Shown piece after piece: positions 720 through 38,614 of a stretch of DNA of 64,000 nucleotides. The first letter of the stretch is position 1; every line of letters starts with the position of its first letter. The position numbers and the translations under genes were made by a program. This DNA comes from Balamuthia mandrillaris. Lineage: Eukaryota > Discosea > Longamoebia > Balamuthiidae. The stretch is taken from positions 1-64,000 of the forward strand of contig JAVKOQ010000063.1 in the NCBI GenBank assembly GCA_031835245.1. The letters are read 5' to 3'. The notes below the pieces were generated by a model. It saw only the letters and a program-made list of their open reading frames with translations, did not search any database and was not told the DNA's origin.

Positions 720-2625
720 GGAGAGAAGAGAAAAGAGAGAGAAAGAGAGGAGAAGAAGAAGAAGAAGAAGAAGAAAAAGAAGAAGAAAAAGAAGAAGAAC
801 AAGAAGAAAACAAGAACAAGAACAAGAACAAGAACAAGAAGAAGAAGAAGAAGAAGAAAAAGAAGAAGAAAAAGAAGAAGAACAAGAAGAAGCAACCTTG
901 ACGGATTCTTCAGTCCACATATCCAGGTCAAGCGACCGTATCTTGGAGATGTGAACACCAAGAGAGCGATGAATGCCAGAACATACCAAACATAAGAATA
1001 CTCCTAAGTTTATGGACACCCATCTTGGCTCTGTTTGTTCAGTATCTTATCGTAAGCTTGCCATTGAAGAAAAAGAAAAAGAAGAGCGAGAACAAGAAGA
1101 ACCTGAATCACCACATTCAACACAAACGTGGTTTTCTGGGAGAGCAGCAAACTGAGAAAGGCTTTCAGGAATAGCTCCGTCTCCGTTTACACAGTCCCTG
1201 CTGCTGTGTCTTCTTATCTTGAACATGGAGCCACGACTGGCGGCTCTTTTCCTCATCGCTTCTGTTCTTTGCTCCAATATGAGATTCGCCAACTCGTCAC
1301 TCTTATCTTTTCCTTTCGCATTCTCGTCCTTCTTTTTATCCTCCTCTCTGTCTTTCTCCCTTTCGCTCCCTCTCTCCTTTGCTTTCTTTTCCAAAGCGCT
1401 CTTGTTCTTGCTGGACGTGGTCGAAACCGTTGCAGCAGCTTTCCTTTGCTTCACCCGTGGACTCTCCTCTGATGATGTTGTCGGTAATGTGGATGATGAC
1501 TTTGATGTCGGCATCCTTGCAGAATAAGCTAGGTCGGTGGGCTCGGGAGAGACTTGATGTTTGATTTTGTTGGGTGTAACGGTGTGTCTGTCCTCTCTGG
1601 TGCGTCTCAGAGTTGGAGTTGTCAACAGCCCTTCGCTCAACTTTTGCATTCTGTTCACCCATTCGTTTTGTTGTTCCGCTTTGTAGATAAAGAAAAGGAG
1701 TCAGCAAGAAGGAAGAAAAAGAGAAAAGAGTAAAGCGAAAAGAAGCAGTGCACCGTTTTCGGCTTGAAAGTGATGAACGAGGTTGGGAGTGGCGATGTCA
1801 AAGCCGTTGTTCTTCGTCACTTTGATGGAACAGAGAAACATGCTTATTTTTCCTGCTGGCTCCAAATCCTGTTTTGTTCATTGTTTGTTGTTCAGCTCCT
1901 TTGTTGTTGGTCTTCTTCTTTTCCTTTCACTTTTCTCATAACAACAAAAAAACAAAAACAAAAAACAAAAAAATAACAAAAAATAACAAAAAATAACAAA
2001 AAATAACAAAAATAACAAAAAATAACAAACAAACAAACAAACAAACAAACAAACAAACAAACAAAAAAAAACAAAAAAAACAAAAAACTAAGAAAATAAA
2101 AAAACAGAAAAGAGAAAAAAAAAGAAAAGAAAAGAAAAACAAAAATAACTTCAAAATAAAAATAAATAAATAAATATAACAAAAAACCAAACAAACCTTT
2201 TTGTTCTTATAGTACAACAACTCGTCCCTCTCGAGCACGCACCAGTGCTTGCGCCACCCTTTTATCAGGTTGGAGCTGAGCTTCAGCAAAAAGCCGGACA
2301 GCACCACGTCGTTCAGCCTGGCCTTCATGGTGGAGGTGCGCGCCCGCGCCGCCGTCTCCTGCATTTCCTTCATGTAGATGGACATCTCTTCCGGCAGGGG
2401 GCTTTCCTCGGGCAACACTCCAGACTCGGCGGCCTCTTCTCCTCCATTTTCAGCAAGAGAAGAAGAAGAGGAAGGGGGTTGTTGATGCGGTGAAGAAGAA
2501 TAAACGGTTGAATGGAGCGTTTCGGCGCGTTGCTTATCTTTTTTGTTGAAGATCTTTCCGATGGAGGAGCCGATGCGAAAGGTGGCCGTTTTTTCCTTCT
2601 CCTCTTTCTCTTTGCTCTTGCTCAT
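1..2625 (-). CDS. PH domain-ArfGAP protein (3' partial)
   Basis: GTPase-activating protein for Arf GTPases, expected on phosphoinositide-rich membranes. Inferred exons on the minus strand are 2625-2197, 1868-1754, 1678-1103, 1030-897, 666-569, 514-391 and 288-1; the phases close across all joins. A PH domain lies near residues 105-180 ([21 protein letters not shown]). A charged Ser/Lys-rich linker of about 160 residues follows. The ArfGAP domain has the zinc motif CVEC...CLVC, the invariant [16 protein letters not shown] segment with its arginine finger, and the distal WIRAKY helix. The last exon stays open for 96 codons to the window edge, so the C-terminus is missing; this is where ACAP-type proteins carry ankyrin repeats, but none is certain here. 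Intron 1 is A/C-rich on the plus strand and another holds a (GAA)n tract. The start is the first ATG before the PH domain. Confidence 0.85.
742..890. repeat. (GAA)n/(CAAGAA)n intronic microsatellite in ArfGAP gene
   Basis: GAA triplets with CAAGAA units, preceded by (GA)n at about 683-714. It lies in the intron between the SVK and ELVTKGN exons of the ArfGAP domain. Confidence 0.9.
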
Positions 2626-3074
2626 TTCGTTCTTGTTGTTGTTGCGGTGGAGGCTTGTGGGCCGGTTGCTCTTCGTTGTTTTTATTCTTTTGCCACCATA
2701 ACAATAATGAAAGCAAAAAAAAGTAACTTTCGTGTTTGGAATTTGCTGAGGTCAATGAATTGTCTTGATCAACCCGCAACCCCTTCTCCCATAATCCGCT
2801 AGACATGATTTTGGGGAAATTCGCTTGGGCCGTTTCTGTTCTCTGTGTAATGTTATTAATAATGTTATTTTTGCAGACATATTACACTAATATTAATATA
2901 CTGCTATATATTACGTTGGTCCATCCAAGTGGTAATAATATTAGGGTCGATTAACCTAATATATCTATTATTCATAATAATATGTGAGTAAATAAACGGC
3001 TATTAGGCGATGATTTCTATGAAGTCTATTAGGTTGAACATATATCTCTATATCAACTATAAAAGAAAAGCAAA
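2626..3074. promoter_or_regulatory. AT-rich divergent promoter with TATTAGG repeats
   Basis: Intergenic DNA between the divergent ArfGAP and F-box-PEX5 genes. The stretch from about 2840 to 3060 is much more AT-rich than its surroundings. It holds an inverted repeat, TATTAGG at 2939-2945 and CCTAATA at 2955-2961, flanking a GTCGATTAA core. Two more TATTAGG copies lie at 3001-3007 and 3027-3033. A TATAAAAG sequence lies about 17 bases before the F-box ATG at 3075; it is either a TATA element with a very short leader or lies inside the 5'UTR. Binding of any factor is inference. Confidence 0.4.
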
Positions 3075-4422
3075 ATGCAAGAGGAGGAAGAAACGATGCT
3101 CACCGCAGAGACCTTCTTTCTGCCCGACGAGATCTTTTTGCAGGTGTTGGAGGGGATCCCTGCAAAGGACCTCCTGGCCTCCGTGTTTCTCGTGTGCAAA
3201 CGGTGGAAGCGTAAAGCGTCCGATGACTCTTTGGTTTGTGTGTTTTTTTTTTTTGTGAGATTTTATTTTTGTTTGTAACCAGAAATTGTTTTTTTTTAAG
3301 TGGAAGTCCAAATGTGCTTTGAGGTGGGGCTCTGATGCGGCCCATGAGGCACAGCACTGTGGCGTCACTGATTGGCTGGCTTACTTTTCTGAAAAGTACT
3401 TTTTTGTTGTTCTCCTCGTTTGCTTTGCTTTGCAGCTTGCTCTCTCTCTCTTCCTCCCTCTCCCTCTCCCTCTCCCTCTCTCCCTCCTCCTCTTTTCTAA
3501 CTTTTCTCTTCTCTTCGTTCGTGTGCTCTCTTTGGTTCATTCTCTTGCCGTCTTGCTGTCTTGCTCTGCTCTCCCTGCTCTCCCTGCTCTCTCTCGGCTC
3601 TCTCTGCTCTCTGCTCTCTTGTTCAAAACATAGAGTTCGATTCGAGGCTTTGCCGCTGTTGCCAGTTACTTACCGCAGCTCCATGAAAGGACCTTACCAG
3701 CCCTATTACTCCAACACTGCTTCCACAGAAGACCTCCTTTCCATCAGGAACTTCTTTGAGGTCGGAGCTTTCTGTTTTCAAGAGGGGCAGCTCGCTGAGG
3801 CAATTCGAGCTTTGGAGGTGGAGGTTGTGCGACATCCTATGAACCATCGAGCTTGGGCCTTGCTTGCCAAAGCTCATATGGAAAACGATTGCGACACACC
3901 GTTCGTTCCTTCTTGTTCTTCTTCTTGTTGTTCTTCTTGTCATAACTTTATGGGTGTTCTTTGTTATCTGCTGCTTTCTACTTTACAATAACGGTTGCTA
4001 ATACCTTTGTTGAACTAGGTCGATTTACTGTGCCTGCACAGCGCTTAGAATAGAACCAAGCAACAGAGACGTTTTGTTGGATTTAGCAGTCAGCTTCATT
4101 AACGAAGTTGAAAGTGGCCATGTTTGTTCTCTCTCACACTCTCCCCCTCCCTCACTACTTTCACTATTAATACTGACGACAACGGAAAAAAACAAAACAC
4201 AAAGGCCAGTTACTTTTTGTCGCAATGGCTGTTATATTCTCCTTACAAAGCCAAGTTGGAGGGCTTTACACAATCCAACGTTTCGATGTTTTCTGAAAAC
4301 GAGTTCGCATCAGCAGGCAATTCACTCTCCGCGTTGAAAAAAGTGTTTTCAGAGATTATCGAGGAGCATCCTGATGACGTTGAAGTTAGAATCACTTTAG
4401 GTTTGGCTTCTCTGCTATTCAT

Positions 4423-4463
<41 letters not shown>

Positions 4464-7023
4464 TTCTCTCTCTTCTCTCTCTCTCTCTCTCGGTTTTCTG
4501 TTCTATTTTCAACATTTCACTTACGGAGACTTGAAAAAAGGCGTGCTGGAAACAGCTTCGTTCGACTTTACAAAAGCAATCCAACATTATGAGCAAGCTC
4601 TTAAAGTGGACCCCACTAACTACGCCTTGTGGAATAAACTTGGTCAGTCTCCTGCATTCTCTTTTAGGTGTTTTTAAACAAGACATCATTCATTAATGCC
4701 ATATTACATTCTATATCAGGAGCAACACGAGCCAACTCTACCCTTGCCCTCCATGCCTGTATGTCCAATCTCTTTCATTTTTCATGATTACCTCTCTAAC
4801 TAATGGAGTTTTACTGAACAATAAGGCCATGCATACCAAGAGGCTCTTCGTTTACGTCCAGGATACGTTCGCTGTTTGGCCAACGTTGGCATCGCCCATC
4901 AATTAATGAACAGTCCTCGGACAGCTGTTGCTTGGTGGACCACTGCTCTCTTGTAAGACCTTTTTCCCCCTCCTTTCTTTTCTTCTTTTTTTTTTCCGTG
5001 TCCTCACTTTCGTTTGTTTACTGCAGGCGCAATCCAAATGCAAGACACATATGGGACTATCTCCGAATGCAATTCTTGGAGGATAACACGGAAACAGCTC
5101 AATTAAAAGAGGCAGTTACACGACAGGACGTTTCTTGGCTGCAAAAACACTTTATTGATGAGGAGACCGAACCTCTTTCCGTCATTCCTCCAAATCACAA
5201 CGAACAAGAAGACAGGCCACCAATATCAACGACTGAATCAACAGTGGACTCTTTTTATCAAGATTGGCTACGAAACATGAATCAAGAGTCGGGGAGTGAG
5301 GATCCTCAAGTAAAAGAAGAAGAAGAAGAAGAAGAAGAAGAAGGAGAAAAAGGAGCACCAGAAGAAATGAAGGAAGAAGAAGCAAAACCACAAGGGCGAT
5401 TGTCATTTGCTGAAGTTATGCGGATGATTCAGGAAGGAAAGACGCCAAGCGATGTTCAGCAGATCGATGATAAGCCGCCAAACCCGAATGCTCCGATTGT
5501 GAAAGGCCAAAGGGCTGCTCCTTTGAAGGTATGTATATGTTTTATTATTTCGTTTTCTCGACGACTTTTCTCTTCCACGAATAACCGAGAATTACTTTCT
5601 TAAATAATAGCCGTGGCAACGTGCTAAGAAAGAAAAAGAAACTACATCAATAGAAAAACAAGCGGTAGCAACACAGCAATTCACCAACAACACTAACAGC
5701 AGTCTTCTTAGCAGTTCAACACTAGCGTCAAACTCTGGTACCAGCAGCAACAGCACGTCAACAGTTGCTTTTAACAACTTGAACCAACAACAAACAGACA
5801 GCACAATCACTTCCAAAGGAATGCCCATATTTACAGTTGACGCTTTCACTTCCAAGGTTCTTTCTTCTTTTTTCTTCTACCCTGTGTTTATTGTTAACTG
5901 CTTATTTCATCATGGTTAGCCTTTTGCAGGAAATCCGGCAGCAGTTTGTCTTCTACCCTTTCCCTCAGCTCTTTCCGAAGCTCTCATGTCAAAGATTGCC
6001 GCCGAAATGAATCTCTCGGAAACAGCTTTCGTTTGTCCTCTTCCTCTAGATCCTCTTTCCTCCACTCCTTCGGCAACAAGTTACAAAACAGCGAAGCGTT
6101 TTGGTCTTCGGTGGTTCACGCCTACCAACGAAGTGGCTTTATGCGGACATGCAACCTTGGCCACCGCACATGTTCTCTTTCATGAAGTTAAAGTTCCGCT
6201 GAACAGCATCACGTTCAGCACTCTTAGTGGAGACCTCATCGTGGAACGCAAACGCGTTGACGAAAGGCAAAAGGAACAAGGAGACTCGGAGGAAGGAACG
6301 ATGATGAGCATGAACTTTCCCCAAGGATTTCCTGAACTGGTGGAAATGCCAGTTGAATCAGTGGTTCTTCCTTTGTTAGGCGCCATGGGTTTACACCTAT
6401 CCGATCTTCTTCCTGTTCCTGCTTCTTCGTCTTTGTCCTCTCTTTCTTCATCTGCATCCTCTCAACTGTTTTCGTTTTGTCAGAAAACGAAAAAGTTGGT
6501 ATTGCACCTCAAGTCAGTTCAGCGGCTGTTAGAAGTGAACCCGGATCAAAAAGCGTTGCTGGCTCTTCGGTTTCCCTCCAATGTTCCTGTTCGCGGTGTT
6601 ATGATTACCACTCTCGGCGGTAACTCTACTCTCTTGTCTTCTTTCCCTTGCTACGAGGGTGAGGAGGCTCTGAGACTAAGAGAAGAAAGCATTGCTGTCT
6701 TTCCAACTTGGGATCGTTACGACTTCATTTCACGGTACTTCTCTCCGTGGAACGGCATTGAAGAGGATCCTGTACTCATTTCTCTCTCACTTCTGTCGTT
6801 GCTTACTTCTGTCTTACGTTTTTTCTGATTTGAAAAGGTAACTGGATCAGCACATACAGTATTGGCTGTTTATTGGAGCGAGCTTTTGGGAAAAGACGAA
6901 CTAAGAGCGTTTCAGGCAAGCAAACGTGGTGGTGAGCTGTTCATCCGGTTGGATCGTAGTAGTGGGCGGGTTAGTTTGGAAGGCACCGCCGTCACAGTGT
7001 TTGGCGGCCGACTTCGTGTTTGA
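3075..7023 (+). CDS. F-box / PEX5 TPR / KPWE-like motif / PhzF isomerase fusion protein
   Basis: Exons 3075-3233, 3301-3395, 3634-3900, 4019-4121, 4205-4400, 4541-4642, 4720-4758, 4826-4952, 5027-5528, 5611-5856, 5920-6771 and 6838-7023 total 2874 nt, exactly 957 codons plus stop. Residues 16-60 are a clear F-box (LPDEIFLQVLEGIPAKDLL, LVCKRW). About 110-450 match the PEX5 TPR domain, the peroxisomal PTS1 receptor: YQPYYSN, WALLAKAHMEND, LLDLAVSFINE, YALWNKLGATRANS, PGYVRCLANVGIAHQ. An acidic linker leads to a SFAEVMRMIQEGKTPSDVQ ... KPWQ module around 490-533, resembling peroxin motifs ending KPWE. From residue 601 there is a PhzF fold with catalytic Glu in MNLSETAFV, the GHAT motif and DPVTGSAH. 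PEX5 normally ends after its TPRs. The KPWQ exon reads without a stop into PhzF. The PEX5-PhzF join is strong. The F-box join is slightly weaker because it crosses a (CT)-rich intron. Confidence 0.8.
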
Positions 7024-7204: not shown

Positions 7205-8999
7205 CTAGAAACTGTCTTCACTGGATCTATCGTCTTCCTCAAATGCATCATCACTATCCTTCTCCTTCTCCTTCTCTTCTCCTCCGCTGCTGCTGCCACT
7301 CGTCTTGGTTGACGACAACGAAGTCGACGAAGAGGAAGAGCTCGACGGCAGCTTCTCCACTGATTTTTTCCAAAATCTCCACCCACTGGCCTTCCTCTTG
7401 TGCCCCATAGCAGCCGGTGTCTTGGCTGCCTCCGATGCTCCTCCCCCATTCACCGGCAGCTTCAAGGCCGTCTCCTTGGGTACGGCTTCCTCCCTCTCCA
7501 CCCCCCTCCACACCATGATGACGTTGCCGGCGCTGCCACAGAGCAAGCCGTTGCTGCAGACCTTGATGACTCTAACTCCCTTCTCATTCTCATCCCTCAG
7601 CACGAACTGGGACTTGCCCTCTGCATCCCAGATGTAAACTCCTCTCGAGTCAAAATGACCGCTGCTCACCAACAAGCCTTTCCACACTTTGAGGCAAAAT
7701 ACACCGCTGCGTGGCCCCTCGATGACTCTTAGGCACTCTCCGCTCTCCCTCCACACTCGGATGGTCTTATCGCTGCTGCCGCTATAGAGCTGGTCGCCCC
7801 AGGCCAGCAGGCAGTTGACCTGGCCGGTGTGGCCAGTGAGGATCACGTCTGCGGTGCCTTCCTTCAAGTTCCAGCCACGAATGGAGAAGTCCTTGCTGCC
7901 GCTCCAGAGTTTGCGCTTCCAGCTCTTCAGGCAGAGCACGCCGTTGTCGTGCCCTTCCAAGATCTTTATACATTTGCCCTGTTGGTTCCACACGCGGATG
8001 CGCTCCATCTTTTGCCCGCTGGAGATGAGGTAAGAGCGGGACTTGCCCCGAAGAATCTTCAGGCAGTTGATGGTATCCTCGCTCCCTTCCATCACCATCG
8101 CGCAGGAGAGGTTCTCCCGCCAGCAGCGAATGGTTTTGTCCATCGACCCCGTTACCAGAAAGTTCCCCCAACCTTTGAAAGCAGAGAAACGGATGAGACG
8201 GAAGCATTGCATAAGGAAGACGAACGAGAGCGAGAGAGAGACAGACAGACGAGAGAGAGAGAGAGAGACAGAGAGAGACAGAGAGAGAGAGAGAGACAGA
8301 GAGAGAGAAAAGAAACTGTGGAACGAATAAAGAAAAGAACAGCACCTTTGAGAGCGTAGATTCCAGACTCGTGGCCCAGTAGTTTGCCCTTCTCCAAGAA
8401 ACGCAAACCCCTTGGGCCTCTATCCTCCTCCCACACGATAACGGAGGCGTCATTGCTGCCAGTCCACAGCTTGTTCTTCCAGATGGCCATGCACTTGACC
8501 ACGTTCTTGTGTCCCCTCATCACGCTCGAGTGTGCCTCCTCTCCTGGCCACGAGTCTTCCAACTGTGAAATCTGTGTGTTCGAGAAGCAGGAAGCAAGGT
8601 AGAAGAAATGAAGTGCCCAACCAGTGAACAAACAAGCATTAATGAAAGAGAGAGTCAAAAGTTTGTTACCTCCCAAGCTCGTATTGTGTCATCCCCGCTT
8701 CCACTCAACAGACAGTCTTTCCACACTTTCATGCACTCGACCCATCCGTTTCCGAAATGGCCTCTCAGAACGCCCACCTCCTCCACGTCAAAGTGAGTCA
8801 ACAGCTCTTTGTCCATGGGTTCCTCCTGGGTTGCCTTCCGCGGATGGGCTGTGGCCACGGCACCGGAGGTCAGAGGCCCGACGGAAGCTCGCAGAGGACT
8901 ACGCGCATTTGTAGGAGAGTTGAGCGGGCTTTCGTAGGTGGCCAGTACCTCATTGAAGCTTGTTTTCCGAGAGAGTGAATTTGAAGTGCCACCGTTCAT
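7205..8999 (-). CDS. WD40 repeat protein
   Basis: Exons 8999-8670, 8571-8346 and 8172-7205 give 507 residues with clean phase closure. About 100 residues of Ser/Ala-rich N-terminus are followed by seven or more WD40 repeats. They are typified by GSGDDTIRAWE, GSNDASVIVWE, GSMDKTIRCWRE, GSKDFSIRGWN and GSSDKTIRVWRE, and many repeats carry a Cys-Leu-Lys-x-Trp strand. The C-terminal tail is low complexity: basic, then Ser-rich, then acidic. It should fold as a beta-propeller scaffold; no catalytic domain is visible. The repeat style resembles propellers of E3 ligase adaptors and amoebozoan signalling proteins, but no partner can be named. An upstream in-frame ATG near 9080 would add a hydrophobic, promoter-like leader, so 8999 is preferred. 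The gene is convergent with the PEX5-PhzF gene, about 180 bases away. Confidence 0.85.
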
Positions 9000-28739: not shown

Positions 28740-38242
<9,503 letters not shown>

Positions 38243-38352
38243 CTTAGTTTTTCTTTCTTTCCCTTTTCTCTTCCCTTCTTTTACGTGAGCAAGAATAGGG
38301 AGGGAAAAGCCCTAATTTTTTTGCACAAGGTCGATTTTGGCGGGAAAAACAT

Positions 38353-38470
38353 GTCGACGGAAACAACAAAATGTCTACAGCAATGAACATATATCGTGTC
38401 GACATGATAACAGTATGTCTGTCGACAGTATTAGCAGTCTACAGAAATGTGTTGTAAAATTTTTGTCGAC
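38353..38470. promoter_or_regulatory. Cluster of four GTCGAC elements in a divergent promoter
   Basis: GTCGAC occurs at 38353-38358, 38398-38403, 38421-38426 and 38465-38470, with degenerate GTCTAC copies between them (near 38373 and 38438). The cluster is between the divergent Pol epsilon gene and the gene at 38615. It matches the cluster at 24567-24681. Confidence 0.5.
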
Positions 38471-38614
38471 AGAATTACCGGGAAACGGGAACACATCTCG
38501 TAGAACTGCATTGTCGGAGACACTTTGGACAATGGAGAGTGATGGATTTGCACTCGCCTACTCCTCCTGTGACTTAACCTCACCAGCAGCAGAACGGAGG
38601 AGGAAGGGAAGAAA

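Follow-up and report, generated by a model that had tools for sequence, protein, structure and literature searches.

The locus analyzed here raises the question of whether an F-box, a PEX5-type TPR domain and a PhzF isomerase are encoded by a single gene of Balamuthia mandrillaris or by neighboring genes that have been read as one, and of what a protein built in this way might do. The window, i.e., the whole stretch of DNA that was analyzed (64,000 nucleotides), corresponds to contig C62; the assembly comprises 775 contigs and totals 64.8 Mb.

Structure of the fusion gene

We are highly confident that the locus is one fused gene with four modules: an F-box, a PEX5-type TPR domain, a PEX39-type unit and a PhzF domain. 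Its features are as follows.

2750..3074, no strand: AT-rich region upstream of the fusion gene (GC 0.32), presumed to be the promoter
3075..7023, plus strand: whole fusion gene, 12 exons, 957 amino acids and TGA (from exon joining; the other haplotype is NCBI protein P0001)
3075-3233, 3301-3395, 3634-3900, 4019-4121, 4205-4400 and 4541-4642, plus strand: exons 1-6
4720-4758, 4826-4952, 5027-5528, 5611-5856, 5920-6771 and 6838-7023, plus strand: exons 7-12
3120..3315, plus strand: F-box, encoded by exon 1 and the first part of exon 2 (residues 16-58; Pfam F-box-like at 3e-10 and 40.1 bits)
3316..3395, plus strand: F-box tail with WLAYF, residues 59-84 (exon 2; aligns to the N-terminus of P0014)
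3746..5153, plus strand: PEX5-type TPR domain and C-terminal bundle, approximately residues 123-405 (exons 3-9; PDB sequence search and Foldseek)
5397..5619, plus strand: PEX39-type unit ending in KPWQ, residues 487-533, with intron 9 (5529-5610) inside it (Pfam KPWE_dom)
5620..5820, plus strand: Ser/Asn/Thr-rich linker, open to MPIF (free of stops in frame; haplotype dN/dS 0.26, small counts)
5821..7020, plus strand: PhzF isomerase domain, residues 601-957 (exons 10-12; Pfam PhzC-PhzF, 1.6e-56)

Joining the exons, with GT-AG at the introns, yielded 957 codons followed by TGA, and the frame of exon 10 stayed open in 1.1% of 20,000 single-base shuffles. These results bear out the exon plan of the first-pass annotation, which had described 12 exons, 957 codons and a KPWQ motif in the exon at 5611-5856. 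Its description of one gene with an N-terminal F-box, a PEX5-type TPR domain and an in-frame PhzF domain was likewise confirmed by the exon plan, the Pfam matches and a second haplotype. It had counted three modules, and thereby missed a fourth, residues 487-533 ending in KPWQ, which was revealed by a KPWE_dom match. The gene occupies the space between the AT-rich region at 2750-3074 and a minus-strand WD40 gene ending at 7205. The WD40 protein (window 7205-8419) is encoded convergently with the fusion gene, and upstream, on the minus strand at 657-2751, PH and ArfGAP matches fall in open frames that are probably one divergent gene.

The second haplotype, on contig C389 (94% identity over 35520-38475), was spliced by the same plan and had GT and AG intact at 11 of 11 introns. 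Its coding indels were -15, +9 and -3 bases, exon 1 was additionally 6 bases shorter, and its product of 952 amino acids exactly matched the NCBI B. mandrillaris protein P0001. Three B. mandrillaris strains were annotated in 2023 by Funannotate with RNA-seq reads, as described in PMC10471605, and we infer that P0001 derives from this annotation. Because both haplotype contigs have the same module order, an assembly error was ruled out as the source of the fusion. Exons 2-12 differed between the haplotypes at 0.8-5.7% of aligned bases and introns at 2.4-24.2%; introns 3 (3901-4018) and 4 (4122-4204) have approximately 118 and 350 additional bases, respectively, in the C389 haplotype. Based on small counts throughout (synonymous and non-synonymous changes in parentheses), haplotype dN/dS was 0.26 for the F-box exons (6 and 6), 0.10 for the TPR domain (14 and 5), 0 for the KPWE unit (3 and 0), 0.26 for the Ser/Asn linker (7 and 7) and 0.07 for PhzF (18 and 4). 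Against this trend, the acidic linker at residues 411-485 had a value of 1.47 (1 and 6, also small counts) and shows no visible constraint. Despite the small counts, the Ser/Asn linker from KPWQ to MPIF behaves like coding sequence.

Approximately 8000 candidates, those sharing most words, were scored in a search for relatives, a scope that F-box/PEX5 fusions elsewhere may escape; the order TPR-KPWE-PhzF was found in 3 of the 120 best listed of 352 relatives, namely P0001, P0014 and P0018. A second listing of 25 proteins contained the same three, and one relatives search brought up no canonical PEX5 by name. P0014 (893 amino acids) is 41% identical to P0001, and P0018 (742 amino acids, from EukProt, with a Trinity, i.e., transcriptome, name) is 42% identical. 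The start of P0014, MAVHRWGAGVEHLGVTEWRAYCRDRAAFE, aligns with RWGSDSSHEAQHCGVTDWLAYFSEKVRFE of P0001 and spans the exon 2/3 junction, and therefore supports, from another source, the predicted joining of the F-box tail to the TPR domain.

That two or three adjacent genes, with PhzF or the F-box separate, were read as one is very improbable. Separate genes would be favored by the length (238 bases), C/T-rich composition and few stops of intron 2 and by a possible start, MPIF, at 5821; the support for the fusion at this locus comes from genomic DNA and protein records. However, the same plan is present in two haplotypes and in P0001, the same order recurs in P0014 and in the Trinity-named P0018, the linker is constrained, and a composition scan found no AT-rich promoter-like gap within the gene. 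Separate genes were thus rejected on the exon plan, the haplotype, the relatives and the open linker frame.

The peroxisomal modules

Several Pfam TPR models scored above cut-off in the fusion protein. In a PDB sequence search, PEX5 chains (1.5e-30) were the best among natural TPR proteins, with 8os1 covering residues 127-405; an engineered TPR repeat, 9qhb, was at the top (4.1e-39), and the natural runner-up after PEX5 was SPINDLY (3.5e-12). Foldseek against the PDB with an AlphaFold model placed PEX5 or TRIP8b at ranks 1-21 and PhzF (4dun) at rank 22. The model (3 sequences) has a mean pLDDT of 49.6 and is usable in the TPR part alone, where pLDDT is mostly 70-87 between residues ~121 and 380 but falls at 221-250. 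Both sequence and predicted fold identify the TPR domain as PEX5-type.

N378, N489, K490 and R520 of PEX5 are described as PTS1 contacts in PMC9513677, and N561, which is N524 in the short numbering, in PMC9328179. All five are conserved in the three fusion proteins, and correspond to N202, N305, K306, R336 and N340 in that of Balamuthia. The equivalent of N531, which we take to be a further PTS1-contact residue, is Leu (L347) in Balamuthia and Ala in both P0014 and P0018, and is Asn in a canonical PEX5 on contig C28.

This canonical PEX5, a check for which had been proposed in the first-pass annotation, is present as adjoining open frames on one strand that carry MSMRDFVGSTECGEQNPV, six WxxxF/Y motifs and PEX5 TPRs. 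Its N-terminus is recycling-Cys-like, and it has a box, SSKFVELMSQLGSGELTVEG, which resembles the PEX7-binding box. Because a canonical PEX5 is present on C28, the fusion protein is a PEX5 paralogue and not the main PTS1 receptor, and the possibility that the fusion gene is the sole PEX5 was ruled out. Thus, the earlier assignment of a PEX5 domain stands for the TPR domain but not for a role as main receptor. On C28, PEX5 and PEX14 lie head to head, a few hundred bases apart (locus L025, 5919-7477; C28 approximately 133.9-135.5 kb), with the N-terminal open frame of PEX5 ending at approximately 6185 on the minus strand and the open frame of PEX14 running from 6416 on the plus strand; a shared promoter is possible.

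The fusion protein is without a PEX5-like N-terminal Cys, as had been noted, its first Cys residues being at 41 and 58, within the F-box region. The N-terminal WxxxF/Y array is also absent, and the single such motif is WLAYF at residues 78-82. This motif is unlikely to bind PEX14, because it sits in the F-box tail and its equivalent in P0014 is WRAYC. The protein therefore resembles PEX5 in its TPR domain and C-terminal bundle (the fold comparison with human PEX5 gives ~30% identity) and in keeping most PTS1 contacts, but it has an F-box in place of the WxxxF/Y array and recycling Cys, and its chain runs on into PEX39-type and PhzF modules while a separate canonical PEX5 is present. TRIP8b (4eqf, among both the sequence and the structure matches) is likewise a PEX5 paralogue with a TPR peptide reader, but to our knowledge, and unlike the fusion protein, it has no F-box, KPWE or PhzF.

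The KPWQ unit matched the Pfam profile KPWE_dom (PEX14-like KPWE domain) at 2e-11 and 44.2 bits, against a cut-off of 27. This profile had two matches in the genome, which are the two haplotypes of the fusion gene, and no further PEX39-type unit was found in the genome when the unit was used as the query at E-values up to 10, a search that gave the same two matches. The motif reads KPWQ in Balamuthia, KPWE in P0014 and KPWK in P0018, with KPWE_dom above cut-off in each. Two 2025 studies reported that yeast and human PEX7 bind (R/K)PWE, that PEX39 helps PTS2 import, and that, among single Ala changes in the motif, that of the final E was the least harmful (PMC12173945, PMC12339391). By analogy, KPWQ may therefore function in PEX7 binding. 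Glu77 of human PEX7 was described as required for PEX39 binding (PMC12339391), and the matching Glu is kept in Balamuthia PEX7, whose gene we located on C65 and C148 (~50% identical to the human protein). A 2020 survey lists PEX5, PEX7, PEX13 and PEX14 for B. mandrillaris (PMC7549135).

Outside opisthokonts, PEX39 has been published as a PEX14 fusion (PMC12339391). PEX14_N had one match in the genome, on C28, and no KPWE-type unit was found in the open frames reading as PEX14 there, the 3' end of which is approximate; the five plus-strand pattern matches at this locus, two of which are RPW strings, all lie outside the PEX14 open frames. Thus, the Balamuthia unit shares with PEX39 (C6ORF226/Yjr012c), and with the KPWE domain that ends non-opisthokont PEX14, a conserved block ending in KPW(E/Q/K), but it sits after a PEX5-type TPR domain and before PhzF, and none was seen in Balamuthia PEX14. 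PEX13, with a YG-rich region, is located around C44:29502-29897. PEX13 and PEX39 KPWE motifs are reported to co-occur; in contrast, no (K/R)PW was found on the coding strand of this 3396-base PEX13 locus, where a split exon could hide one. Matches sit at identical coordinates on C44 and C324, which suggests that one stretch is present twice in the assembly.

The F-box and PhzF domains

The F-box matched Pfam F-box-like at 3e-10 (40.1 bits, cut-off 24.3) and F-box at 2.4e-4, both exceeding cut-off. The Skp1 family has six matches in the genome, and coupling of the predicted F-box to Skp1 is plausible. A domain search of the P0014, P0018 and P0121 records found no F-box match, P0121 being the NCBI model of a second F-box/PEX5-type locus pair. 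Because the P0014 and P0018 records are without the F-box core, which was seen in Balamuthia alone, a link to Skp1 may be special to this organism. The second locus pair, on C2 (approximately 2394-4916 of locus L023) and C146 (60657-62801), ends right after the TPR bundle, has His at the position of N489, and has F-box exons upstream at 51-53% identity. Both copies have a GC donor after exon 2, this exon is out of frame in C2 relative to C146, and P0121 omits the F-box; for these reasons the pair lends weak support to the F-box of the fusion gene, and its own F-box looks decayed or mis-spliced. Like SCF F-box substrate receptors, the fusion protein has an N-terminal F-box followed by a repeat domain, but this domain is of the PEX5 type, and the PEX39-type unit and PhzF come after it.

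PhzC-PhzF scored above cut-off (1.6e-56), with residues 606-762 as the best of two stretches. E646, H689 and D895 match the catalytic residues Glu45, His74 and Asp208 of PhzF (PMC4586147) and do not vary among the three fusion proteins. PhzF is described as a homodimer in the same paper, and by analogy the domain could therefore dimerize the fusion protein. The four PhzF-family matches in the genome are two exons in each haplotype of the fusion gene, and the stand-alone PhzF gene that the first-pass annotation had proposed to look for was not found in the genome. The further suggestion that PhzF rides into peroxisomes was unsupported, with the WxxxF array missing and a C-terminus of LRV. A PTS1 on PhzF was ruled out, the proteins ending in LRV in Balamuthia and P0014 and in LRAY in P0018. 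Compared to the PhzF family (bacterial PhzF, YddE), the domain match and the catalytic Glu, His and Asp are alike, but Balamuthia PhzF is joined to peroxisomal receptor modules.

Possible roles of the fusion protein

We give about an even chance to the reading that the fusion protein is a PEX7/PTS2 cofactor in the cytosol, able in addition to read C-terminal tails and to dock on Skp1. The KPWQ unit would be Balamuthia's PEX39 and would hold PEX7 and PTS2 cargo outside the membrane, while the TPR groove, with five PTS1 contacts kept and one lost, would still read a PTS1-like C-terminus. The F-box would dock on Skp1, which would make the fusion protein a place where import and SCF ubiquitination can meet, and PhzF would be a cytosolic enzyme domain and perhaps a dimerizer. 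PEX7-PTS2 cargo and PTS1-type tails could then be passed on either for import or to SCF. Lacking both the WxxxF/Y array and the N-terminal Cys, the protein is unlikely to be a cargo receptor that enters the peroxisome. Speaking against the PEX7-cofactor reading, KPWQ differs from KPWE, P0018 has KPWK, and the N531 equivalent is lost in all three fusion proteins.

It is possible, but rather unlikely, that the protein is chiefly an SCF substrate receptor that clears unimported peroxisomal proteins. As such a dedicated E3 adaptor, it would read PTS1 via the TPR domain and PTS2 via PEX7 bound to the PEX39-type unit, and would pass unimported matrix proteins to SCF for Skp1-Cullin ubiquitination, with PhzF as a dimerizer or metabolic sensor; if true, this would be a new kind of ligase for the quality control of peroxisome cargo. 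The F-box shares its chain with two cargo-signal modules, Skp1 is present in the genome, and other Cullin ligases are known to use C-degron readers that have repeat domains. Against this role, the F-box core was seen in Balamuthia alone, and PEX39 relatives are described as promoting import and not cargo destruction (PMC12339391). We also consider it unlikely that the TPR domain is no longer peroxisomal, as in TRIP8b, and that the fusion is a scaffold for PhzF or another client. The loss of the N531 equivalent in a PEX5 paralogue, the TRIP8b matches and the His at N489 in the C2/C146 pair would fit such a scaffold, but five PTS1 contacts are kept in three divergent proteins and a PEX7-binding-type unit is in the same chain.

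The single modules are already known, and the four-module combination is unusual. In the literature searched, which covered few subscription journals and was judged mostly by title and abstract opening, neither this combination nor an F-box/PEX5 or PhzF/TPR/peroxisome link was found. The presence of domains in one chain is a strong clue to shared function, and two other proteins likewise combine three of the four modules, among them PhzF, an enzyme family whose role in eukaryotes is poorly known. Our results suggest that non-opisthokont PEX39 can occur without a fusion to PEX14. With the PEX7-cofactor reading, the fusion points to a cytosolic meeting place of both import branches and makes SCF policing of peroxisomal cargo testable. 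Altogether, the fusion could link peroxisome import to protein degradation.
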